Of a stretch of DNA of 26,655 nucleotides, positions 17,464 to 26,655 are shown one piece after another. Source of the stretch: Paludibacteraceae bacterium (lineage in GTDB: Bacteria > Bacteroidota > Bacteroidia > Bacteroidales > Paludibacteraceae). The stretch spans positions 1 to 26,655 of the forward strand of contig JAKSMY010000024.1 in the NCBI GenBank assembly GCA_024400275.1. Reading direction: 5' to 3'. Each line of letters begins with the position of its first letter. Positions within the stretch are counted from its first letter, which is position 1. Made by a program: the position numbers and the translations under genes. Below the pieces are notes generated by a model that saw only the letters and a list, made by a program, of their open reading frames with translations, did no database searches and was not told where the DNA came from.

Positions 17464-19785
17464 ATGAAAAAGATTCTTTTCTTATCGCTAACAGCGATTG
17501 CTATGCTGATTAGCGGAAATGCAAAAGCTGCGATTGCTTCAGTAACAGATTTGCAGAATGCAATCAATGACGCACCTCGTGGTGCAGCTACGGCAACTGT
17601 TATTACATTGGATCAGTCCATTGATTTTGGTGCAAGTAACATTGCTATTTTTGATCGTAACATTGAACTCGTGATTCCAGAAGGGATGAATATCACAAGT
17701 TCGGGAACTACCATCTATTTCTTAAAAGGAACTTTGAACATTTCAGGTAAAGGTTCTATTATTTCTTCTAGTACTGCTGATGCTATCCGTGTGATGGGTT
17801 CTGCTAATCCTGAAGCCGCCAACTATACCAACTTGACCGTTGGTAAAGATATTACCGTGATTGGTGGTAAAGGTATTCAAATTTATACCTTGGGTTGCGG
17901 TTATAAGTATGAAGAAGGTGCTTATGCAAGTATCAAAGCTTATGATAACAATGTATTGCAACCTTCGGCAGGAGCAGACCATATTACTGGCAAGATGAAC
18001 TTGAAGGAAGAAGAAATTACAGAACTTAAAAATTCAGCCAATAAACTTCAAAGTGTTTGCTTTAAGTCTGGCTCTCATGGCTATGCTTTCGGTGTAAATG
18101 TTGACATTTATGGTAAAGTTAGCGGTCGTGAGTATGCGCTTCAAGTTTCCGGTACCGTTCGTGGTTGCCGTACAATGGCTAATGGAACGGCTCCATTTAC
18201 TGGTGCTACTACTGCTAAGTGGCCTATGATTATCGTGGAAGAAGGTGCCGTGTTGACCGGTATCTCCAATGGTGGTAATATGTATCCTAAGGAAGGTGAA
18301 AGTTATCCGACAGGTATTTATGCAGCCGGTTATGCGGACTGGGTTATCAAAGGTAAAGTTACCGGTGATAATGGTATCATAGCTAAATCTGGTAAGGTTA
18401 CCGTTGATGAAAGTGCAGAAATCTCTGCTACTGGTAATTATGTACAGCCCACTTCTGCTGGATCGGGAACAAAATCTTCTGGTAATGCTATAGACTTGAC
18501 CTCTGATGATGCCTATTCCGGACGTATTGAAGTGTCTGTTAGTGGTGGTGCTTCCGTTAGTTCCGAAAAGGGATATGCTCTTATAGAGGAAGTTGCAATA
18601 GGCGCAACTACCAGTACCAAAACAGCTGATGTTACCATTACCGGTGGTAATTTCCAAGGTGGTGAAGGTAAAGCCGCTGTTAAGACGACTAGCGAGGTTA
18701 AGCAACAAATCGTAACGAAAGGTACAATTACCGGTGGTACGTTTAGCGATAACGAAATTAAAGAATATCTCCCCGCTGTTAGTGGTTTAATCACTATTGA
18801 GGTAAATGAGAACAATGAGCCCGTTTACGTAATTGGTGGTACGAAAGATCCTGTACAATGGAAGAATGAAGACATCAATACTGTAGCTGATGGTGCTTAT
18901 GTTGAATACAAAGGTAGTGATGTAAATTATACTTTGACTAAAGATGTAAACATTGCTTATCTGTCTATGGCAGACAAAGAGAATGATGCTACTATTACCA
19001 TTCCTGCTGGTAAGACCTTGAAGGTTGGTGAAATCGTTATGGGTGAGAATGCACAAATCGTTGTTGAAGCCGGTGGTAAACTTGTTGTTAATGGCGAGAA
19101 TGGTATCATTGCATTTGAGGTTTTCAACTTGGTTATCAAAGCCGATGCTACAAACGGTATGGGTACATTCGTTTTGAATCCTGCTGTTAAAGGTAACAAG
19201 ACTCCATGGGCTACGGTTGAGTATATGTGCAGTCCTTTAGCAGGTAAGTTTACTATTGCTAGCAAAACAGCATACTATTGGGATATTATATCTTCACCAT
19301 TTGCAGAAATGATTTCGATTACTACTCCAGATCAGTCATCTTATTATCAACGCGTAGTTGATCAAGCATATGTCAATGTAACTGATAAGCAACAAATTTA
19401 TGACAATGTTAAAGCATTTGATGCATTAGCAATCTGTCCGAATGCTGATCGAGGCTCAATAAAATACATTATGACTGGCAAATTGCAAGGCGCTACTTCT
19501 CTTGCAGATTATGCTGTTGTTTCTGGTTTCAACCACATGGGTAATGCTTATATGGCTAAAATGAATGCAAAAGAATTGGTAACTGAATTACAGCAAAATA
19601 ATGGTAGCATTCGTACTCTCATTTATATTTGGAGCGTAGAAAGCCAAAAGTATATTGGATATAATGGATATCTATTACAGCTATTAGGTAATATTGATCC
19701 AATGAAATCAGCATTCTTATATTCAGATGGTGAAGGTACTGCTAATTTGAATTATGAAAAGTTGATTTGGAATGTAAACAAATAA
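17464..19785 (+). CDS. Large secreted beta-helix-like surface protein
   Basis: A 773-residue protein with a signal peptide (about 1-22, ending AKA). The first ~450 residues are Gly/Thr/Val-rich with many short beta-strand turns (GTLNISGKGSIIS, TVGKDITVIGGKGIQIY, VTITGGNFQGG, GTITGGTFSD), typical of a right-handed beta-helix adhesin or surface protein. A second strand-rich block (TITIPAGKTLKVGEIVMG...GGKLVVNG) and a C-terminal ~180-residue domain with aromatic, non-repetitive sequence follow. No type 9 sorting motif is recognisable at its end (KLIWNVNK). The coding DNA turns AT-richer from about 19230. It is transcribed behind the TA remnant, and the tiny ORF at 19791 begins 5 nt after its stop. 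Function unknown. Confidence 0.85.
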   Translation: MKKILFLSLTAIAMLISGNAKAAIASVTDLQNAINDAPRGAATATVITLDQSIDFGASNIAIFDRNIELVIPEGMNITSSGTTIYFLKGTLNISGKGSIISSSTADAIRVMGSANPEAANYTNLTVGKDITVIGGKGIQIYTLGCGYKYEEGAYASIKAYDNNVLQPSAGADHITGKMNLKEEEITELKNSANKLQSVCFKSGSHGYAFGVNVDIYGKVSGREYALQVSGTVRGCRTMANGTAPFTGATTAKWPMIIVEEGAVLTGISNGGNMYPKEGESYPTGIYAAGYADWVIKGKVTGDNGIIAKSGKVTVDESAEISATGNYVQPTSAGSGTKSSGNAIDLTSDDAYSGRIEVSVSGGASVSSEKGYALIEEVAIGATTSTKTADVTITGGNFQGGEGKAAVKTTSEVKQQIVTKGTITGGTFSDNEIKEYLPAVSGLITIEVNENNEPVYVIGGTKDPVQWKNEDINTVADGAYVEYKGSDVNYTLTKDVNIAYLSMADKENDATITIPAGKTLKVGEIVMGENAQIVVEAGGKLVVNGENGIIAFEVFNLVIKADATNGMGTFVLNPAVKGNKTPWATVEYMCSPLAGKFTIASKTAYYWDIISSPFAEMISITTPDQSSYYQRVVDQAYVNVTDKQQIYDNVKAFDALAICPNADRGSIKYIMTGKLQGATSLADYAVVSGFNHMGNAYMAKMNAKELVTELQQNNGSIRTLIYIWSVESQKYIGYNGYLLQLLGNIDPMKSAFLYSDGEGTANLNYEKLIWNVNK

Positions 19786-19790
19786 TAACT

Positions 19791-19940
19791 ATGGTTAAGA
19801 AATATTTTTCACCTATCACTACAGAAATATTAGTGAGTAGTATGGAAATGCTATGTGATAGTAAATTTCCTGATAAAGAAGCGCCGACGCCAACAGACCC
19901 CACAACTCCGTTAGCTCCTGCTAGAAAACTTTATGTGTAA
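19791..19940 (+). CDS. Small MKxYIxP-type protein, copy 1 (49 aa)
   Basis: ATG 19791 to TAA 19938-19940, 49 residues, 5 nt after a large secreted-protein gene. The start MVKKYFSPITTEI and the middle SSMEMLCDS match the two other small ORFs at 21051 and 23970 (pattern M-[KR]-x-Y-[IF]-x-P ... M-[LA]-x-x-S). The C-terminus is P/T-rich. There is no signal peptide and no membrane segment. I recognise this as a kind of small ORF that recurs in Bacteroidales but know no assigned function. The next gene starts 18 nt downstream, so it is inside an operon. Confidence 0.72.
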   Translation: MVKKYFSPITTEILVSSMEMLCDSKFPDKEAPTPTDPTTPLAPARKLYV

Positions 19941-19958
19941 ATTTTAAATTATAAAAAA

Positions 19959-20984
19959 ATGAAATACTTAAAATTATTTTCAATTTGCCTTTTGGCATCA
20001 CTTGCAATGAGTGTGTCCGCTGCTGTGACTGCTCAGGCAACTATTAAAGCTCAAGGAGATTTAAGCCAAACTCCTGACTATCTAACAATCACTGAGGATG
20101 ATGCACTTGCAACTAATTTTGCTTCGCCAAATACAGGCATTTATAGTACTGCTGGTGGCAACGATTTTAGTGTGTCTTTGTATGCCGTTGATGGTGCAAA
20201 TAAATATTCACCTGTTGCAAGCAAGAGTTTGGAAGGTCTGCAAATCAAGTTTATTGCTAACGCTTACGAGACTGCTTACACCATGTCTTTCTCCAATGTT
20301 AGCGGTACTGAGTACTTCTTACAAAAAGGTGATGATGCTGCAAATCTGATTCCTATGACTGAGGATTATGCTTTCACATGCGCTGTTAGTGCAGAAATCA
20401 TTTTCACCGTTGTAAAACAAGCCGCTCCTGCTTACGACTATCCTCGTGATGGTTTGACCGCTGGTAACTGGTACACTATCTGCTTGCCGAAAGCTTCTTC
20501 GTCCTTCGTTGGCATGGAACTCTACAAAGTAGCTGGTTATGTTGAAGGTCAAGGTTTGGCTGTTGATCCTGTTGAAGGTCAAATGGTAGCCGGTATGCCT
20601 TATATCTTCTTAGCTACTGCTACCGAAATTGGCGTAATGTACACCGGTGAAGCAGCTGATGCTCAAACTGCTAACTATTTGGTAGGTGTGTTGGCAGATG
20701 AGTTTGTAACTCCTGCTGTTGCATACGTAGTTGCTAACAACGTGCTCAACTGGGCTGCTGCCGGAACTCCTGTTCCTGCTAACCGTGCATACTTGGCTAA
20801 AGAGGACATCACCACATTAGGTGCTCCTACTATTAGTGCTCCCGGTCGTAAGTTCATCGCTCCTAAGGCTATGCCTACCGAACTTAACGAAGTGGCTGCC
20901 GGCATGGCTGACGGAACATACATGATCAATGGTCAAGTTGTTCTCGTTAAAGGTGGTAAAATGTTTAATGTTCTTGGCCTCTAA
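19959..20984 (+). CDS. Secreted protein with beta-rich surface module and conserved C-terminal motif
   Basis: A 341-residue protein with a signal peptide (about 1-21, ending VSA). Residues ~25-150 are an unrecognised domain. Residues ~155-300 form a module common in Bacteroidales secreted proteins: WYTICLPKA, then AGMPYIFLATA, then NYLVGVLAD...YVVANNVLNWAAAGTPVPANRAYL. The last ~21 residues (YMINGQVVLVKGGKMFNVLG) match the end of the phosphatase fusion at 22391 in the pattern GQVxxxxxGxxxNxxG; this could be a sorting or anchoring tail. The gene lies 18 nt after the small ORF at 19791 and 66 nt before the next one at 21051. Likely exported; function unknown. Confidence 0.82.
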   Translation: MKYLKLFSICLLASLAMSVSAAVTAQATIKAQGDLSQTPDYLTITEDDALATNFASPNTGIYSTAGGNDFSVSLYAVDGANKYSPVASKSLEGLQIKFIANAYETAYTMSFSNVSGTEYFLQKGDDAANLIPMTEDYAFTCAVSAEIIFTVVKQAAPAYDYPRDGLTAGNWYTICLPKASSSFVGMELYKVAGYVEGQGLAVDPVEGQMVAGMPYIFLATATEIGVMYTGEAADAQTANYLVGVLADEFVTPAVAYVVANNVLNWAAAGTPVPANRAYLAKEDITTLGAPTISAPGRKFIAPKAMPTELNEVAAGMADGTYMINGQVVLVKGGKMFNVLGL

Positions 20985-20994
20985 TTATTAACTA

Positions 20995-21033
20995 TCCCCC
21001 TTCTCCCCCTTACTGAGGGGGTCGGGGGGGGGT
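20995..21033. repeat. C-rich/G-rich inverted element with a 9-G tract
   Basis: CCCCC and CCCCCTT are followed by ACTG and AGGGGG, then TC and nine G (21024-21032), making several alternative hairpins between the 341-aa gene and its small partner ORF. The tract may form a G-rich structure and is prone to length change, but it is not in a reading frame. Confidence 0.75.
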
Positions 21034-21050
21034 GAAAAAACAAAGTTTTT

Positions 21051-21173
21051 ATGAGAAAACAATATATCGCTCCTCTAAGCGAGGACATCAAATTGGAAGC
21101 CTTAATGGCTGAGTCGAAAATTCTGGATATTAATCAACCCAGCACTCCTGTAACAGGATTGACCGCTGAATAA
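21051..21173 (+). CDS. Small MKxYIxP-type protein, copy 2 (40 aa)
   Basis: ATG 21051 to TAA 21171-21173, 40 residues. The N-terminus MRKQYIAPLSEDIKLEALMA and the following ESK align with the small ORFs at 19791 and 23970. It follows the 341-aa secreted protein and is followed by a perfect hairpin (21198-21233), so it closes the operon. No signal peptide. Function unknown; pairing with an exported protein is the only clue. Confidence 0.72.
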   Translation: MRKQYIAPLSEDIKLEALMAESKILDINQPSTPVTGLTAE

Positions 21174-21197
21174 TCTATATCCTTAGAATATCTATAA

Positions 21198-21233
21198 TTA
21201 AGAGCCGAATTGCTGAGTCAGTTCGGCTCTTAA
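21198..21233 (+). terminator. Perfect 12-bp hairpin, likely end of the surface-protein operon
   Basis: TTAAGAGCCGAA and TTCGGCTCTTAA flank a 12-nt loop, 24 nt after the stop of the small ORF. There is no T-run, so it is terminator-like and not a textbook intrinsic terminator. Confidence 0.6.
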
Positions 21234-21235
21234 TG

Positions 21236-21300
21236 ATTCCATCAATAAAAAAATCTCAAAAAATTTTGCTTGTTTGAGATTTTTTTTGTACCTTTGCAGC
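21236..21300 (+). promoter_or_regulatory. Palindromic promoter of the MNT/HEPN module (copy 1)
   Basis: TTTG (21265-21268), a 20-nt spacer and TACCTTTG (21289-21296) form the promoter. A 14-bp perfect inverted repeat AAAAAAATCTCAAA/TTTGAGATTTTTTT (21247-21260 and 21273-21286, 12-nt loop) straddles the -33 box. Almost the whole 65-bp block recurs at 22302-22365. The inverted repeat could be an operator for the TA complex. Confidence 0.75.
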
Positions 21301-21323
21301 GTAAACGCAAAAAATCAGGATAT

Positions 21324-21632
21324 ATGCCAAGCAGGGAAGTACAAAAGATGATACCCAAGATTCAACAGTATTTTGCCACTCAACCCATTGAGCGTGCATA
21401 CTTGTTTGGGTCATGTTCTCGAGGGGAAGAGACAAGAGATAGTGATGTGGATTTATTGGTTACTTACACCGATAGTGACAAGTTGTCCTTATTGACCATC
21501 TGCCACATTATGAACGAATTATCTGATCAACTTGGGCGAACAGTTGATTTGGTAGAAGAACGGGGTCTTCTTCCTTTTGCAGCTCCATCTGTTAACAAAG
21601 ATAAAATGCTTATATATGAGAGAGCCAATTAA
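21324..21632 (+). CDS. mntA: MNT-family nucleotidyltransferase antitoxin
   Basis: A 102-residue minimal nucleotidyltransferase. The motif GSCSRGEETRDSDVDLLV (residues 29-46) has the G-S-x10-D-x-D arrangement (Asp41, Asp43) that binds metal and ATP. In studied MNT-HEPN pairs the MNT protein inactivates the HEPN toxin by adding AMP to a tyrosine near its active site. The ATG at 21324 is chosen because earlier in-frame codons overlap the promoter. It overlaps the toxin gene by 17 bp, the antitoxin-first layout seen in this class. Confidence 0.88.
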   Translation: MPSREVQKMIPKIQQYFATQPIERAYLFGSCSRGEETRDSDVDLLVTYTDSDKLSLLTICHIMNELSDQLGRTVDLVEERGLLPFAAPSVNKDKMLIYERAN

Positions 21633-21960
21633 AGACAAAGGGCGTTTGGAACATATTATGCAAAGCATAACCAATTTGCAAAATTTCTCAAAAGGAAAGA
21701 CTTTAGAAGATTTGGAGAATGATCATATCTTATATTTCGCTTTGGTTAAGAACATAGAGATTATTGGCGAGGCGGCATATATGCTTTCCGAGGAATTTAA
21801 ATCAACACATGCAGATACAAATTGGAGAGATATTATTTCTATGCGGCATGTTTTGGTGCATGGTTACTATGCTATCAGTCCCGGACATGTTTGGTCTGTT
21901 ATTGAGCGCGATATTGAACCACTCAAAAAACAGATTTTGCAATATCTTTCAGAATCTTAA
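21616..21960 (+). CDS. hepT: HEPN-domain ribonuclease toxin (DUF86, HepT)
   Basis: A 114-residue helical protein. RHVLVHGY (Arg77, His82, Tyr84) is the R-x4-H-x-Y motif, in which Arg and His cut RNA and Tyr is the residue AMPylated by the MNT antitoxin. LVKNIEIIGEAAYMLSEEF is the usual DUF86 helix. All key residues are present, so unlike the PIN remnant this toxin looks functional. The ATG at 21616 gives the family-like start MREPIKDKGRLEHIM; an upstream in-frame ATG at 21577 lies inside the antitoxin gene. It works in the cytoplasm against RNA; the specific target cannot be told from sequence. Confidence 0.88.
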   Translation: MREPIKDKGRLEHIMQSITNLQNFSKGKTLEDLENDHILYFALVKNIEIIGEAAYMLSEEFKSTHADTNWRDIISMRHVLVHGYYAISPGHVWSVIERDIEPLKKQILQYLSES

Positions 21961-22301
21961 ATAGAACATTATACATAGCTAATTTGTACATTCTAACTAC
22001 GTCCCGAGCGCGATATTAGAGGATGCACCAAAGGCGCTACAGTTTAGAGGAGTCCTTACTCCTTATTCCATTCTCTATTTAGATTTTCATTAGATTTCTC
22101 GGAGCGCAGCTCCGAATACAATCTATTTTTCGTCCTTATATTTTTGGCTGAGATTTTCAATCGGATTTTAAAATCTTACTAAAATCTTTGCTTAAAATCG
22201 AATTGACGATATTCTTTTTGATTTCGCTTACGCTCAGAAATCTAACTAAAAATCAAAGCTATTTCTGTAGCGCTTCCGGCGCATCATTCCATCAATTCAT
22301 C
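21961..22301. other. Intergenic stretch with hairpins, no gene seen
   Basis: About 340 nt of AT-rich DNA between hepT and the second palindromic promoter. It holds small hairpins, TCGGAGC-GCA-GCTCCGA (22099-22115) and GATTTC...GAAATC near 22230. Near its end it holds a 16-bp tandem unit (ATCATTCCATCAATTC then ATCATTCCATCAATAA). A 12-bp string GAGCGCGATATT at 22006-22017 repeats one within hepT (21904-21915). No ORF there looks like a protein. Confidence 0.6.
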
Positions 22302-22365
22302 ATTCCATCAATAAAAAATCTCAAAAAGTTTTGCATATTTGAGATTTTTTTTGTACCTTTGCAGC
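22302..22365 (+). promoter_or_regulatory. Palindromic promoter of the phosphatase gene (copy 2)
   Basis: TTTG (22330-22333), a 20-nt spacer and TACCTTTG (22354-22361). A 13-bp perfect inverted repeat (22313-22325 and 22338-22350) with a 12-nt loop straddles the -33 box, exactly as in the copy at 21236-21300. The copies differ by one A and a few substitutions. Confidence 0.75.
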
Positions 22366-22390
22366 CGATTGTGTTAACTTTTTTCTAAAA

Positions 22391-23962
22391 ATGACAACTA
22401 CTCATCTTTTCAAGGGGCTGTTTTGTGCCCTATTATGCCTTTGTGGAAGCCGCGTTGCAGCTGCTACAGGTGTTACTTTGGATGCTGATTTGAAAGCAGC
22501 ACTTCCCAGTGGTGAATTTTTCTTACCTGCTCCTCCTGCGGTAGGTTCGTTGGTTTGGTTGGACGATTCCACCAAGTATTTTCAGTACAAAGAGATGGGG
22601 CATGTCTTTGACCAAGACAAGCAGGCTTATTGGGACTCTATCTGGGCTAAGATGAATGAGCAGTACTATTTCGCCCTCTATCGCGTAGGTGCAGATAGCG
22701 TGATGAATGCACCCTTTGTTAGTGTCAGTTGGACTAAAGCATCTGCCACTAAATACAATGTCAGTTATACTCGCAATACCACCGACTTCCCGGCAATGAA
22801 TGCCTTGGAACTGCTCTGTGAGCAGATGAAAGAGGACGGTACGTCCGGCTTATGGCGCACACGACCGCGTCCTTATTACTATTTTGGTGATTGGTATGCC
22901 GGAAAAAAATATGCGAAAGACCTAACTAATGCATCTTCCTACCCTTCCGGTCATGGCTATTTTGCCGGACTGTTTGGTATGGCTATGCTCTATATTGACC
23001 CCGACCATTCGTTGGCTATCAAAAATATGATAGACGAATGGCTTAACTGCCGTCTTATCTTAGGAGCCCACTGGAACACTGACCTCAGTGCCGGCTGGCA
23101 ATTGGGAGCCATCACTTTTGCTATCGCGATGAACTACGACCAATTCAAGAACGCAGTAGAGGCAGCAAAAACCGAATTGTCAACTTATCGTGCTGCCCAA
23201 TTGGCACCCAAACGTATTCCCGATGATGTAACAGGTGAGCAAACATTAGAGAAAGCACAAACGGCTATTGCTACAACTCTCGCAGGTTGGAAAGCCGATT
23301 GCGATGCCAACCCGGAAAAGACTATGGATATTGAGATTAGCCGCACTTTCTTTTGCGATGGTTTCTACAACTCATTGTCCTTGCCTTTTGATATTGCAGA
23401 AGCCGATTGGACAGATGCCGACAAGAACCCTTTGGCAGAAGGCACACTCAAACGTTTCGTCAGTGCCGAAGTGGTAGATAATATCCTTAACATCACTATC
23501 GAATCGGCTTCGTCTATTGAAGCAGGCACACCTTATTTAATTAAGTTCCCTGCTGGCGACAACATCGTCAATCCTATTTTCAAGGGCGTACGTGTAGCTG
23601 CCGATATTGCCGGTACAACCGAAACAGAGGCGATGGACTGCAAAGGTACGTTCATTCCCTATCAGATTCCAACAGGAAAAGAATCAGGACACCTGATTTT
23701 AGGGGCTAACAACGCACTCTATTGGCCGGCAGAAGATGCTGAATACTTACGTGGCTTCCGTGCTTTCTTCCAAGTGAACGACACACCTGCTGCTGCGCCT
23801 ATCCGCCACAATATGAGTACTCAATTGACGGAAAGAAGAACGCCGACAAATGACCCTTCTGTCCCTTATACCAATTTGCAAACCTATAAACTGATTGACG
23901 ACGGACAAGTCTTTATTATTCAAGAAGGTATTAAATATAATATGTCCGGTGTCGTTAGATAA
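22391..23962 (+). CDS. Secreted PAP2-type acid phosphatase fused to a surface module
   Basis: A 523-residue protein with a signal peptide (about 1-24). Residues ~30-280 are a class A-like acid phosphatase of the PAP2 fold: PSGH (185-188) and R-LILGA-H-WNT-D (Arg221, His227, Asp231) are the second and third catalytic motifs. The first motif is R-T-R-P-R-P, but the Lys normally seven residues before RP is not found. Residues ~320-485 hold the Bacteroidales secreted module (FYNSLSLPFDI, AGTPYLIKF, LILGANNALYWP, RGFRAFFQV), and the end (LIDDGQVFIIQEGIKYNMSG) matches the end of the 341-aa protein. It would release phosphate from organic phosphates outside the cytoplasm. A small ORF follows after 7 nt. 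Confidence 0.85.
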   Translation: MTTTHLFKGLFCALLCLCGSRVAAATGVTLDADLKAALPSGEFFLPAPPAVGSLVWLDDSTKYFQYKEMGHVFDQDKQAYWDSIWAKMNEQYYFALYRVGADSVMNAPFVSVSWTKASATKYNVSYTRNTTDFPAMNALELLCEQMKEDGTSGLWRTRPRPYYYFGDWYAGKKYAKDLTNASSYPSGHGYFAGLFGMAMLYIDPDHSLAIKNMIDEWLNCRLILGAHWNTDLSAGWQLGAITFAIAMNYDQFKNAVEAAKTELSTYRAAQLAPKRIPDDVTGEQTLEKAQTAIATTLAGWKADCDANPEKTMDIEISRTFFCDGFYNSLSLPFDIAEADWTDADKNPLAEGTLKRFVSAEVVDNILNITIESASSIEAGTPYLIKFPAGDNIVNPIFKGVRVAADIAGTTETEAMDCKGTFIPYQIPTGKESGHLILGANNALYWPAEDAEYLRGFRAFFQVNDTPAAAPIRHNMSTQLTERRTPTNDPSVPYTNLQTYKLIDDGQVFIIQEGIKYNMSGVVR

Positions 23963-23969
23963 GAGACTT

Positions 23970-24086
23970 ATGAAAACCTATATTCAACCGCAAAGCGAAA
24001 CCGCCACTATTCATAGCGCAATGTTATGCACCTCGTCTGAAATCAAGGTGTCAAACGATCCGTTGTCCCAACGAGATGCAAGATAA
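23970..24086 (+). CDS. Small MKxYIxP-type protein, copy 3 (38 aa)
   Basis: ATG 23970 to TAA 24084-24086, 38 residues, 7 nt after the phosphatase gene. The start MKTYIQPQSET and the middle SAMLCTSS match the ORFs at 19791 and 21051. It lies in the same reading frame as the following YD-like gene, separated from its open frame by this single TAA. No signal peptide; function unknown. Confidence 0.72.
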   Translation: MKTYIQPQSETATIHSAMLCTSSEIKVSNDPLSQRDAR

Positions 24087-24094
24087 AAGAACTC

Positions 24095-24139
24095 GCTCAA
24101 CCTGCTAAACCTGCTCAACTTGCTAAACCGGTTAAACAT
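24095..24139. repeat. Five 9-bp units (GCTMAACCY) at the start of the YD-like gene
   Basis: Units GCTCAACCT, GCTAAACCT, GCTCAACTT, GCTAAACCG and GTTAAACAT follow each other. They are the same family as in ispE (14954-15034) but read in another frame here (LN-L-LN-L rather than PAKPAQ). They include the likely start codon of the next gene. Confidence 0.88.
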
Positions 24140-26655
24140 ATTGCTCATTCTGCTTCTGGGGTTACTCTCCGGCCAATTGGCGTATGCAGCGGAAGCATGT
24201 CCGATGGATAGCGTGATTACGTATGACCAAGATGGTAATCCTACATCCCGTTTGTCGTATGTGTATGATCAAGAAGGTCGCCAAATTGAAACTGTTGGAT
24301 ATAAACTTTCTAATTCAATATGGGTGGGATATTTCCGAAATACGACTGTATATACAACATCTGGAAAAGTTGCGGAAACTGCTAGTTGGACTTGGAATAA
24401 TAATATGTGGGAAGGAAATACTAAATCTGCATATACTTACGATTCCAACAATCGAATTCTAACCGAATCTACTTTCTCAGGTTGGGCTGATAATGATTGG
24501 GTCGGACTTACTCGTAAAGAATACCAATATGATTCAAAAGGGAACAGGACAACGATAGCCACGTTGTCTTGGTCAACTACTGCAAAGGAATGGAGTCCGG
24601 ATAATAAGTATGAATATGTTTTCGATGCCCAAAATCGCCAAACTGAAATCAAATATTATGTGGGTCACAATGGTGTGTGGATTTCTCAAACATGGCAAGA
24701 GTATGCGTATGACGGACATGGAAATTTATCTTTAAATCGGTATTGGAATGGCTACAATACTTCTACCAATAAATGGATTGGCGAATCATGGCAAAATAAT
24801 ACCTACAACACATCTAACAAACTAATTGCAAAAGAGCAATACGGCTGGAAAGATAATGATTGGTACGGCACTTCCAAAACCGAATACGGCTACAATGCAG
24901 CTGGCAAACAGACCATTTATATCAACTATACATGGAACACAACCACTTCTGCTTTTGATAAGTCCACCGAAACATATTACGACTACGACCAGTGGAACAA
25001 TACCATCTTGCAGGAGCAATACCAGTGGCAGGGCACTCAGCGTACCGGCGTAGTCAAAGTGCGCTATGAATATACTGCCTATAACAGCGATCCGGTTATG
25101 ACCGCCACCTTCCAATGGGACGCGACTAAAAGTATATTTATAGGTGTAGATAGTACCCGCATTGCCAAAGATGCTGCGGACAACCTCATCCTTAACGAGC
25201 AATACACATGGTCAGCCAACGATTGGGTAGGTACAAAAAAGGAGGAATACACCTACGATGCCAACAAACTTGTCCTCAGTACCGTTGCCTATAAATGGGA
25301 CGTGGTAAAGAACACGTGGGGTTATAGCACTAAAGTGCTGGCGGACTACGATAGCCATAAAAACCAGACCAAAGACGAACGCTACCAGTGGACAGCAGAT
25401 GCTGCCCTACCCGATGGCGGATATTGGAAGGGTACCAAATACGAAGTCACTACCTACAACGACAAGAACGTTGAGACCGACAAGATAACCTACCAATGGG
25501 ACGACACCAACCGCCGCTGGTTGGGCAACTCCAAATCAATTTATGAGTTCGACGCTGCCAATCACCTCGTCTTAGAGGAGCAATATACATGGTATTTAGA
25601 CCCCACTAATCCGGCAGGCGGATACTGGCAGGGTACCAAGAAAGAGGAGTTTGGCTACAATGCCGCCAATCAGCAAACCAAAGCCGTCACTTACGAATGG
25701 AGTACCGCTATCAACGATTGGATAGGCAAGACCAAAGTCCTGTCCGATTATGATAGCAACAAGAACCAAACCCTAAACGAACAATACACTTGGACTATAG
25801 ACGCCTCGCCCGAAGGCGGCTACTGGCACGGCTCCGTCAAAGAGGAATATACATTCAACAAGAATAAGCAGCAGACCTCCTCGCTTATCTACGTCTGGAA
25901 CGATACCGGGCGTGATTGGGACTATGTGTCAAAAACCAAGTCGGAATACGATACCAAGAAAAACCTGACTTTGGACGAACGCTACGAGTGGCAAAACGGT
26001 GCTTGGGTCGGTACACTCAAAAAAGAATATGCCTACAATGCCCAAGGGCAACAAACCATGTTTGCTTACTATGCGTGGGACGAGACCAAAGGGGCGTTTG
26101 TGGGTACACAGAAAGAAGAGACCGAACTCGATGCCGAAGGACGTACTGTCCTGCACGCTACCTATACATGGGGCACTACCGATTGGATAGGTAAATCCAA
26201 AAATGAATATACCTACACGGCTACCAACCAAATAGCCACGGATATTGTATCTCTGTGGAGCAATAATAAATGGACATATAGCACCAAGACCGAGAACACC
26301 TATACCGATAACAAGGTAACAAGTTATATCCGATACGATTGGGTCAATAACGCATGGGTGGCTGCTACCCGCTGGGAGCAGGTAGATGCCGATACGGAAC
26401 GCAGTTACGAGTGGTGGAACAACAACTGGAGCATTACCCAGGAGAAAGCCAAGTCCTACGATGGTCAAAATAGGCTTGTCTCGGAGTCTATGCAGAACTG
26501 GCGGCAAGGCATACAGACTAGCGGCAGCAAGACCGAACATACCTACACGGGCAACAACCTGACCCAGAAATCGTCCTATATCTTTGAGAGCGATTGGGTA
26601 GAGACCGACCGCATTACCAATACGTTTGATACGGAGAACCGCCAAACCAACACCA
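24120..26655 (+). CDS. Secreted W/Y-rich tandem-repeat (YD-like) protein, partial at right edge
   Basis: The frame is open from after the TAA at 24086 to the window edge (about 845 residues from the start chosen). No ATG precedes the signal peptide; TTG at 24120 gives M-L-N-R-L-N-I-L-L-I-L-L-L-G... ending AYA|AEACP, a good signal peptide, so I chose it. TTG at 24141 is an alternative. The mature part is about 20 repeats of roughly 40 residues with the theme W-x-G-x-x-K-x-E-Y-x-Y-[DN] and Y-x-W, akin to YD/Rhs-type repeats but Trp-rich. It probably forms a long surface fibre or shell. No toxin domain or sorting tail is seen in the visible part. DNA before about 24840 is AT-richer than after. 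Confidence 0.75.
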   Translation, partial: MLNRLNILLILLLGLLSGQLAYAAEACPMDSVITYDQDGNPTSRLSYVYDQEGRQIETVGYKLSNSIWVGYFRNTTVYTTSGKVAETASWTWNNNMWEGNTKSAYTYDSNNRILTESTFSGWADNDWVGLTRKEYQYDSKGNRTTIATLSWSTTAKEWSPDNKYEYVFDAQNRQTEIKYYVGHNGVWISQTWQEYAYDGHGNLSLNRYWNGYNTSTNKWIGESWQNNTYNTSNKLIAKEQYGWKDNDWYGTSKTEYGYNAAGKQTIYINYTWNTTTSAFDKSTETYYDYDQWNNTILQEQYQWQGTQRTGVVKVRYEYTAYNSDPVMTATFQWDATKSIFIGVDSTRIAKDAADNLILNEQYTWSANDWVGTKKEEYTYDANKLVLSTVAYKWDVVKNTWGYSTKVLADYDSHKNQTKDERYQWTADAALPDGGYWKGTKYEVTTYNDKNVETDKITYQWDDTNRRWLGNSKSIYEFDAANHLVLEEQYTWYLDPTNPAGGYWQGTKKEEFGYNAANQQTKAVTYEWSTAINDWIGKTKVLSDYDSNKNQTLNEQYTWTIDASPEGGYWHGSVKEEYTFNKNKQQTSSLIYVWNDTGRDWDYVSKTKSEYDTKKNLTLDERYEWQNGAWVGTLKKEYAYNAQGQQTMFAYYAWDETKGAFVGTQKEETELDAEGRTVLHATYTWGTTDWIGKSKNEYTYTATNQIATDIVSLWSNNKWTYSTKTENTYTDNKVTSYIRYDWVNNAWVAATRWEQVDADTERSYEWWNNNWSITQEKAKSYDGQNRLVSESMQNWRQGIQTSGSKTEHTYTGNNLTQKSSYIFESDWVETDRITNTFDTENRQTNT

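Follow-up and report, generated by a model that had tools for sequence, protein, structure and literature searches.

The 26,655-nucleotide stretch of DNA analysed here (the window: positions 1 to 26,655 of contig JAKSMY010000024.1, assembly GCA_024400275.1, from a Paludibacteraceae bacterium) carries three small open reading frames (ORFs), A, B and C, that are likely to encode leader-core precursors of a ribosomally synthesized and post-translationally modified peptide (RiPP). The predicted pathway would depend on a RiPP recognition element (RRE) and resemble that of the linear polyphosphorylated peptides (LPPs), with dispersed precursors, each coupled singly to a gene for cargo of the type IX secretion system (T9SS). 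What has been computed here is the existence of a family of such ORFs, the selection acting on it, the position of its members behind genes whose products end in a T9SS C-terminal domain (CTD)-like tail, the co-occurrence of small ORFs and RRE across genomes, the genes that neighbour the RRE, and the direct adjacency of RRE and small ORF in three genomes.

Three small open reading frames with a common N terminus

Each of the three forward-strand ORFs is a candidate RiPP-type precursor. ORF A (19791..19940) encodes 49 residues, with the tyrosine and proline of a putative YxxP leader motif at Y5 and P8, a conserved Ser24 (codon 19860-19862), and a Pro/Thr-rich tail with the C terminus APARKLYV. 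ORF B (21051..21173, 40 residues) has Y5, P8 and Ser22 (codon 21114-21116), and ORF C (23970..24086, 38 residues) has Y4, P7 and Ser22/Ser23 (codons 24033-24038); the serine thus stands at Y+19 in A, Y+17 in B and Y+18/19 in C. An earlier note on this DNA had given these coordinates, lengths and strand, together with gaps of 5, 66 and 7 nt to the upstream genes, and all of them are correct. The pattern it proposed, M-[KR]-x-Y-[IF]-x-P-x-x-[ET], holds literally for C (MKTYIQPQSE) only, A (MVKKYFSP...) and B (MRKQYIAP...) having one extra residue ahead of the tyrosine, and its second motif, M-[LA]-x-x-S, fails for B, which reads M-A-x-S.

Relaxing the spacing to M-x(1-3)-Y-[IVF]-x-P selects exactly A, B and C from the window's ATG-started ORFs of 30-60 residues. 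In 200 dinucleotide-preserving shuffles of the window, the mean number of such ORFs was 0.22 and the maximum 2, and in 1000 shuffles of a 5.2 kb region the mean was 0.025 and the maximum 1, a test that is somewhat generous because the tyrosine spacing was picked after A, B and C were known, but that bears out the note's view that three would be unlikely by chance. A, B and C are genuine ORFs, beyond chance expectation. A scan against Pfam and NCBIfam assigned them to no family at E ≤ 1, a single-sequence protein search with ORF B returned no match, and an AlphaFold model of the small-ORF family was uninformative (mean predicted local distance difference test score 70.5, predicted template modelling score 0.20, no structure elements reported). 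The family profile recovers ORF A (as P0010), which is itself a row of that profile.

A multicopy family under purifying selection

The best identity of the IspE encoded in the window is 65%, to metagenome-assembled genomes (MAGs) of Bacteroidales and Paludibacteraceae, many of them from ruminant, horse and pig guts, and relatives were sampled via the genomes of loci found through IspE, many of which are probably MAGs. In four genomes the DNA pattern M-K-x(1,2)-Y-[IV]-x-P matched 25 times and the reversed pattern 3 times; 12 of the 25 matches were used; at the other 13, either no small ORF could be read or the ORFs were chance ones. Profile A3, built from 15 members, found matches at E ≤ 1 in 51 of the 61 genomes from the genus to which genome G001 belongs, with up to 17 matches in a genome. 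Over the order the family is patchy: a strict pattern matched in 5 of 295 genomes (an out-of-frame null pattern in 1 of 295) and a second profile, A4, in 9 of 149 at E ≤ 0.05, while two other genomes of the order, G138 and G194, hold 16 and 18 A4 matches. A protein search with A4 gave 178 proteins at E ≤ 1; among the 120 listed there was no Pfam domain, and such names as were given read hypothetical protein, two coming from Paludibacteraceae. Looser searches discriminated poorly, a loose DNA pattern in 81 genomes of the family giving mostly noise outside a few genomes, and a loose regular expression over the IspE-anchored loci giving 104 matches, of the same order as its controls (55, 84 and 86), with one clear family member beyond the window (L061) and two members missed (L046 and L053, recovered later).

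Conservation is concentrated at the N terminus, K-K-x-Y-I-x-P-x-T-E, which is followed by [IL][ML] and a serine, and the remainder is variable and rich in Gly, Pro and Asp. Among the 128 of 130 distinct ORFs that could be anchored, threonine occupies P+2 in 73% and glutamate P+3 in 66%, and the tails are 18.7% Gly and 10.5% Pro, with cysteine in a single tail (1/128); a serine lies between Y+17 and Y+21 in 54 of 65 ORFs. The ratio of nonsynonymous to synonymous substitution (dN/dS) is not near 1, the value that the earlier note had named as telling against a protein family. In seven small ortholog groups (23 pairs, 20 computable) it ranges from 0.07 to 0.73, with 19 of the 20 pairs at or below 0.41, figures that are rough because synonymous sites are often near saturation. 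The small ORFs are a multicopy Paludibacteraceae family under purifying selection, and are probably peptide-like in function.

These results leave next to no likelihood for an artefact of chance, whereby conserved non-coding DNA 3' of cargo genes is open by accident. Such an explanation could appeal to the shortness of the ORFs and to the longer TTG-started alternatives that two of A, B and C also possess, but it is largely refuted by dN/dS below 1 in every computable pair, by the shuffles, by the excess of the pattern over its reverse in four genomes, and by the even spread, modulo 3, of the gaps that separate the small ORFs from the genes upstream. A conserved YxxP N terminus joined to a variable remainder looks like a RiPP precursor, and co-occurrence with an RRE was therefore tested.

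Position behind probable T9SS cargo genes

Members of the family lie, with few exceptions, directly behind genes whose products end in one of two kinds of T9SS CTD-like tail, type 1 with the consensus [KR]x[IVL]x[DN]GQLxIxRxGxxYNxxGQxVK and type 2 with GIYxxxGxYxG...LPAGVYVVDGxKxVK. Taking the 66 next-best profile matches, none dropped from the count, 59 sit directly 3' of a tail gene (56 by a tail hidden Markov model, or HMM, and 3 by pattern), against a background of 23 tailed genes among the 985 in the IspE-anchored loci by the same profile. That profile, through which tails were partly recognised, was derived from loci of this family and has two window tails among its rows. The seven exceptions include three loci with only 168-242 nt of contig upstream (L281, L282 and L303) and four without an upstream tail gene (L299, L321, L333 and L337). 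The arrangement recurs in 12 of 12 loci of a first set and 26 of 27 of a second, both read by eye (exception L152; 27 of 30 loci read, L147, L160 and L167 being left out, and L143 repeating L081), and in 21 of the 24 loci of a third set, where L258 and L275 were misread by the script, L267 was masked and five loci repeat earlier ones. Several members in G194 likewise follow type 2-like tails. The homologues are thus not scattered without a link to secreted proteins, an outcome that the earlier note had set against its own proposal, and its picture of a conserved small-protein family, lacking a signal peptide and tightly linked to secreted-protein genes, is supported.

The gap between tail gene and small ORF runs from -4 (an ATGA overlap) to 213 nt, with a median of 35, and its values modulo 3 are evenly divided (19/20/20 of 59). 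Because of that evenness the small ORFs are not a read-through cargo tail, and extension of the cargo by read-through or frameshift is ruled out. The reverse link is weak: tail matches number 2-113 per genome (in 61 of 61 genomes) versus 0-17 small-ORF matches at E ≤ 1, and of 20 tail genes found at the IspE loci, 3 are followed by a small ORF.

In the window itself, all three upstream products have signal-peptide-like N termini (by eye), in agreement with the statement that each ORF follows a secreted protein. The ending GQVxxxxxGxxxNxxG that had been ascribed to these proteins is found on two of them. One is the 341-residue protein encoded between A and B (19959..20984, forward strand), whose type 1 CTD-like tail (...DGTYMINGQVVLVKGGKMFNVLGL) is encoded at 20847..20981; a genome search with this cargo found no relative. 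The other is the 523-residue protein before C (22391..23962, forward strand), which has a PAP2 domain (Pfam PF01569, E 8.7e-7) and a type 1 tail (...KLIDDGQVFIIQEGIKYNMSGVVR) at 23825..23959. Both tails are rows of the tail profile and match it by construction. The 773-residue protein before A (17464..19785, forward strand) has neither the ending nor a T9SS-like tail; by BLAST its residues 514-769 match L153 and its residues 493-770 match L081, where the genes do carry a tail, and the alignment stops ahead of that tail.

Curated T9SS sorting-domain models (TIGR04183 and PF18962) matched no tail among 3 window and 10 other proteins at E ≤ 1, the single sub-threshold match of that scan being internal rather than at the tail. 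The tails are nonetheless reminiscent of the short-CTD cargo of Prevotella intermedia, as far as the available text of that report describes it (PMC11969387), with an end of about 45 residues and a T-[GA]-[IV]-[DE] motif like the cleavage site PT/GI (by eye). In type 2 tails the order of the Y..G, GxY and basic motifs is that of P. intermedia (by eye), whereas type 1 tails differ in motif order. T9SS cargo is described there as joined to surface polysaccharide, and no mention of a downstream small protein was found in that text.

A cytoplasmic chaperone or partner, binding the T9SS preprotein while this is nascent or unfolded (for example at its tail), before export and in co-adapted pairs, would also account for a near-obligate place behind tail genes, for the lack of a signal peptide, and for the finding that within one small-ORF ortholog group the upstream tails are alike too. 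It is an unlikely explanation, since tail genes far outnumber small ORFs, since conservation sits in the YxxP leader and not protein-wide, and since some relatives stand behind an RRE gene or ahead of lipoprotein-like genes.

Relatives of the latter kind occur in other Bacteroidales (L136, L140/L175 and L193), where they do not follow a tail gene but lie ahead of lipoprotein-like genes, with N termini ...CSDDD and ...CSKED (by eye). At L333 (G433:C1:43417) a YxxP leader (MKKIYVQPRTETVATTPQQMLCASGG) is in one frame with about 345 more lipoprotein-like residues, which may reflect a fused precursor or a missing stop codon.

Co-occurrence with a stand-alone RRE

A stand-alone RRE, scored as PF05402 over cut-off, is present in 44 of the 61 genus genomes, in 39 of the 44 as one match, and also in G138, G194 and G173. 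When the small ORFs are scored at a best E ≤ 0.1, 41 of the 61 genomes have both, 3 have the RRE only, 2 the small ORF only and 15 neither, for a Fisher p of 1.4e-9 that is inflated, as are the other co-occurrence p values, because genomes share ancestry; at E ≤ 0.05 the table becomes 40/4/2/15. As a control for T9SS, SprA (PF14349) is found in 58 of 61 genomes, including 14 of the 15 with neither RRE nor small ORF (G420 being the exception). The small ORFs track the RRE more than they track T9SS or tails. Because those 15 genomes keep T9SS-tail genes without RRE or small ORFs, the direct protein partner of the small ORF products is more likely to be the RRE together with a leader peptidase, and the earlier suggestion that these products are cytoplasmic partners of the cargo, or regulate it, is not borne out. 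The note's other idea, a peptide signal, would be compatible with these results. The same genomes bear on the chaperone, which could point to RRE-negative, ORF-poor genomes being tail-poorer as well, but which does not lead one to expect that they retain tails and T9SS and mostly not small ORFs.

Putative machine genes at RRE loci

The genes beside the RRE resemble a processing and export set. Among 29 RRE loci, drawn from 30 fetched regions and not from all RRE matches (one region, L238, gave no RRE match), 26 have a signal-peptidase-like gene no more than 2.5 kb from the RRE, 23 of them within 300 nt; over the same 2.5 kb an HprK-like gene is found in 10 of 29 loci, an NTP transferase gene in 5 and an ATP-binding cassette (ABC) gene in 4. 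The ORF-rich genome G138 has signal-peptidase-like, HprK-like, NTP transferase, ABC exporter and RRE genes together, the only such case among the fetched regions, and G194 has consecutive HprK-like, signal-peptidase-like, RRE and ABC genes. Of 30 RRE matches in the order, 12 loci were read, and in three of them (G173, G111 and G113) the RRE gene is followed immediately by a YxxP small ORF; that of G173 is also matched by profile A4, and those of G111 and G113 by a loose pattern and by eye. The order in G173 is a 1530-residue gene, RRE, small ORF, HprK-like, signal-peptidase-like and ABC, and the 1530-residue product has a C-terminal Por_Secre_tail domain over cut-off (PF18962, E 2.9e-9). In G111 a 1292-residue gene, whose product has a sub-threshold C-terminal Por_Secre_tail match (E 6.4e-4), precedes the RRE and the small ORF.

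Judged by loose patterns, all 27 signal-peptidase-like ORFs keep a Ser-His-Asp order and all 11 HprK-like ORFs a Walker A-like motif. Counterparts, by motif position, of the Asn and Asp with which LppB, the RRE of the LPP system, holds YxxP are present in all 27 pattern-recognised RREs (of 29). The NCBIfam assignments are all below cut-off: the best model is archaeal signal peptidase I (TIGR02228) for five peptidase-like ORFs and ScmC or HprK_rel for four kinases, and, of two exporters, one has MsbA as its top model and the other has it in second place.

This neighbourhood argues against a peptide regulator, that is, an unmodified and unexported cytoplasmic ligand made from each cargo operon that signals cargo expression to a common receptor, RRE-like or other. 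One common N-terminal motif with many variable tails, and a single RRE match in most RRE-positive genomes, would suit such a ligand, but an RRE so regularly near a signal-peptidase-like gene, and sometimes near a kinase and ABC exporter as well, looks like part of a processing and export set, and the regulator is accordingly improbable.

A lasso peptide pathway invites comparison, since YxxP is the motif bound by the discrete RREs of lasso-type systems (PMC13381572 and PMC12710340, in the text available). Paeninodin-type lasso peptides combine a YxxP or WxxP leader with a discrete PqqD-like RRE, and their accessory enzymes include an HprK-like kinase and an NTP transferase (PMC13381572, same text), and the RREs here have sub-threshold matches to the lasso PqqD models NF033530 and NF033536 and weak matches to the solved B1 proteins TfuB1 (E 0.054) and TbiB1 (E 0.072, a designed repeat protein scoring higher). 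Lasso peptides need a B2 leader peptidase, however, and B2 (PF13471) is over cut-off in 0 of 61 genomes, with one weak match, on which ground lasso membership is rejected; nor was a macrolactam cyclase noticed beside the RRE in a reading by eye of N termini, no genome-wide cyclase search having been made. That A, B and C are lasso precursors is very doubtful indeed.

Other RRE regions have features of their own. In a set of Paludibacteraceae loci (L211, L213-L215, L218, L239, L244, L246, L247, L251 and L252) the RRE and signal-peptidase-like pair lies beside large secreted-protein genes, several of them tailed, the neighbour at L214 being an M6 metalloprotease (TIGR03296, E 4.1e-56), and a small secreted protein (about 180 residues) is often encoded alongside. 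At L238 (G001:C17, around 148700) a second, distinct PqqD-like ORF has a gene for a secreted protein and one for an ABC exporter nearby. At L220 (G385:C111) an RRE of another type is accompanied by HprK-like, weakly signal-peptidase-like and ABC genes, in a genome that has an RRE and no small-ORF match (best E 0.737).

Likeness to linear polyphosphorylated peptides

The closest comparison is with the LPP RiPPs, published in May 2026 from the lpp cluster of Paenibacillus alginolyticus (PMC13381572, on the text available, here and for the LPP statements that follow). Its authors regard the family as restricted to Bacillota and its role as unknown. LppB, the RRE, binds YxxP; LppK, an HprK-like kinase, phosphorylates Ser3; and LppS, an archaeal-type signal peptidase, cuts just ahead of the core, aided by LppB. 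In LppA the phosphorylated Ser3 stands 18 residues past Y-16, and LPP clusters in Bacilli often accompany capsule loci. The genomes considered here share with LPP systems the genes for a discrete RRE and an archaeal-type signal-peptidase-like protein, joined at some loci by those for an HprK-like kinase, an NTP transferase or an MsbA-like exporter (all five together in G138), short precursors with a conserved YxxP N terminus, a variable C terminus and a serine about 18 residues past the tyrosine, and the absence of a lasso B2 over cut-off. They differ in host, LPPs belonging to Bacillota, and in gene arrangement, with 1-3 precursor genes inside an LPP cluster versus up to 17 dispersed matches in Paludibacteraceae. 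Among the 12 order RRE loci read, precursor genes next to the RRE, as in LPP systems, are seen in G173, G111 and G113; the small ORFs here, unlike LPP precursors, lie nearly each behind a T9SS cargo gene, and the machine genes are often split up.

RiPPs with double-glycine (GG) leaders, including the bacteroidetocins, are the comparison closer to home among Bacteroidales, and they too have short leader-core precursors, but their leaders are of the double-Gly type and the exporters encoded in the cluster are mostly C39 ones (PMC10352776, as far as its text was available), as opposed to the YxxP leader, signal-peptidase-like protease and dispersed precursors seen here. In the literature consulted, mostly open-access main texts, nothing was found that links T9SS cargo with RiPP precursors or describes LPP-type clusters in Bacteroidota, and no word beginning 'bacteroid' occurs in the main text of PMC13381572.

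If the LPP-like reading holds, residues 1 to about 22 of each product would be the leader and the Gly/Pro/Asp-rich remainder a variable core. By analogy with LPP biochemistry, a stand-alone PqqD-like RRE encoded elsewhere would bind the YxxP leader and present it in trans to the HprK-like kinase, which would phosphorylate the conserved serine, and the archaeal-type signal-peptidase-like protease would remove the leader just ahead of that serine; an NTP transferase may decorate the peptide. Phosphorylation and cleavage would occur in the cytoplasm and be followed by export through the MsbA-like ABC transporter. Cargo and peptide would come from one transcript, and because the precursor gene lies 3' of the cargo gene at a short median distance, with some ATGA overlaps, the two are probably co-produced. 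Once mature, the peptide probably has its role at the cell surface alongside the cargo, a guess for which the gene arrangement is the basis, and might act with or on the cargo or on its anchoring polysaccharide. The link of LPP clusters with capsule loci and that of T9SS cargo with polysaccharide may hint at a common theme.

A number of observations weigh against this reading. The window itself encodes no machine gene, the link to the RRE being drawn from the genomes of relatives, and the evidence for LPP-like chemistry is comparative. The protein before ORF A scores E = 93 against the tail HMM and gives that ORF no tail gene to follow. The HprK-like, NTP transferase and exporter genes lie away from the RRE in most loci. 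The LPP consensus, YxxPxVLxHQxIxFETxxS, differs from that found here after YxxP, x-T-E-x-x-x-[LVI]...[IL][ML], in which neither HQ nor FET appears. Small ORFs occur without an RRE in G406 and G418 (1.5 Mb MAGs, possibly incomplete), and three genomes have an RRE without small ORFs. RRE-negative genomes have fewer tails (mean 37.9 versus 68.5, p 1.8e-5), although the association persists when the comparison is restricted to the 35 genomes that carry 29-70 tails (21/2/2/10, p 2e-5). The co-occurrence is clade-structured. On a tree built from SprA for the 56 of 61 genomes with a strong SprA match, the RRE and small-ORF traits each change 10 times; six well-supported independent RRE contrasts gave on average 4.0 concordant, 0.0 discordant and 2.0 uninformative outcomes (median sign-test p 0.125, not significant), and five small-ORF-first contrasts gave 3.3 concordant and 0.1 discordant (p 0.25, not significant). 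The independent contrasts point the expected way, yet they are few. At the level of the order, where 35 genomes were compared, PF05402 occurs in 6 of the 8 that have a small-ORF match and in 16 of the 27 that have none; one of those 16, G111, has a profile-missed small ORF beside its RRE. The general PqqD family is too common over the order to serve as a marker, and order RREs without a small-ORF match may serve other or more diverged precursors.

Since the consensus after YxxP differs and the Paludibacteraceae precursors lie outside the cluster, the system is best described as LPP-like, with dispersed precursors tied to T9SS cargo, and not as a full member of the LPP family. The wider proposal is more tentative, though a serious possibility: that a RiPP system is wired into the T9SS repertoire, many dispersed precursors each accompanying a different surface-cargo gene and sharing one trans-acting RRE, peptidase and kinase, so that cargo-matched peptides, modified by phosphorylation and perhaps linked to sugar or nucleotide, would be exported and act alongside the matching cargo on the cell surface, for instance by helping to attach it to polysaccharide there.

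Neighbouring features of the window

At 21270-21960, after ORF B and ahead of the PAP2 cargo gene, the window encodes a nucleotidyltransferase and HepT-like pair (PF18765, E 2.8e-15; PF01934, E 3.2e-22) that resembles the type VII toxin-antitoxin system MntA/HepT and is below NCBIfam cut-offs. Near-identical stretches (catcaataaaaa..., tctcaaaaa, ...ttgagattttttttgtacctttgcag; by eye) at about 21240-21305 and 22285-22372 stand ahead of the toxin-antitoxin-like pair and of the PAP2 cargo gene, respectively, and might represent a promoter or terminator repeat common to both. Straight after ORF C, an open frame of at least 856 residues (24087-26654) runs past the end of the window, with a signal-peptide-like start, no obvious ATG, and then many YD-like repeats.

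Implications for peptide pathways in Bacteroidota

What appears to be new is an LPP-like system whose precursors are dispersed over the genome and tied to T9SS cargo, with a mechanism that, by analogy, would be close to that of LPPs. If so, an LPP-related pathway exists in Bacteroidota with its precursors scattered rather than clustered, and cluster-based RiPP mining would miss them because precursor and enzyme genes are not neighbours. A set of unannotated tiny ORFs would be accounted for, and a little-known peptide pathway would be tied to bacterial surface proteins, the place of the precursors behind T9SS cargo genes hinting at where such peptides work.

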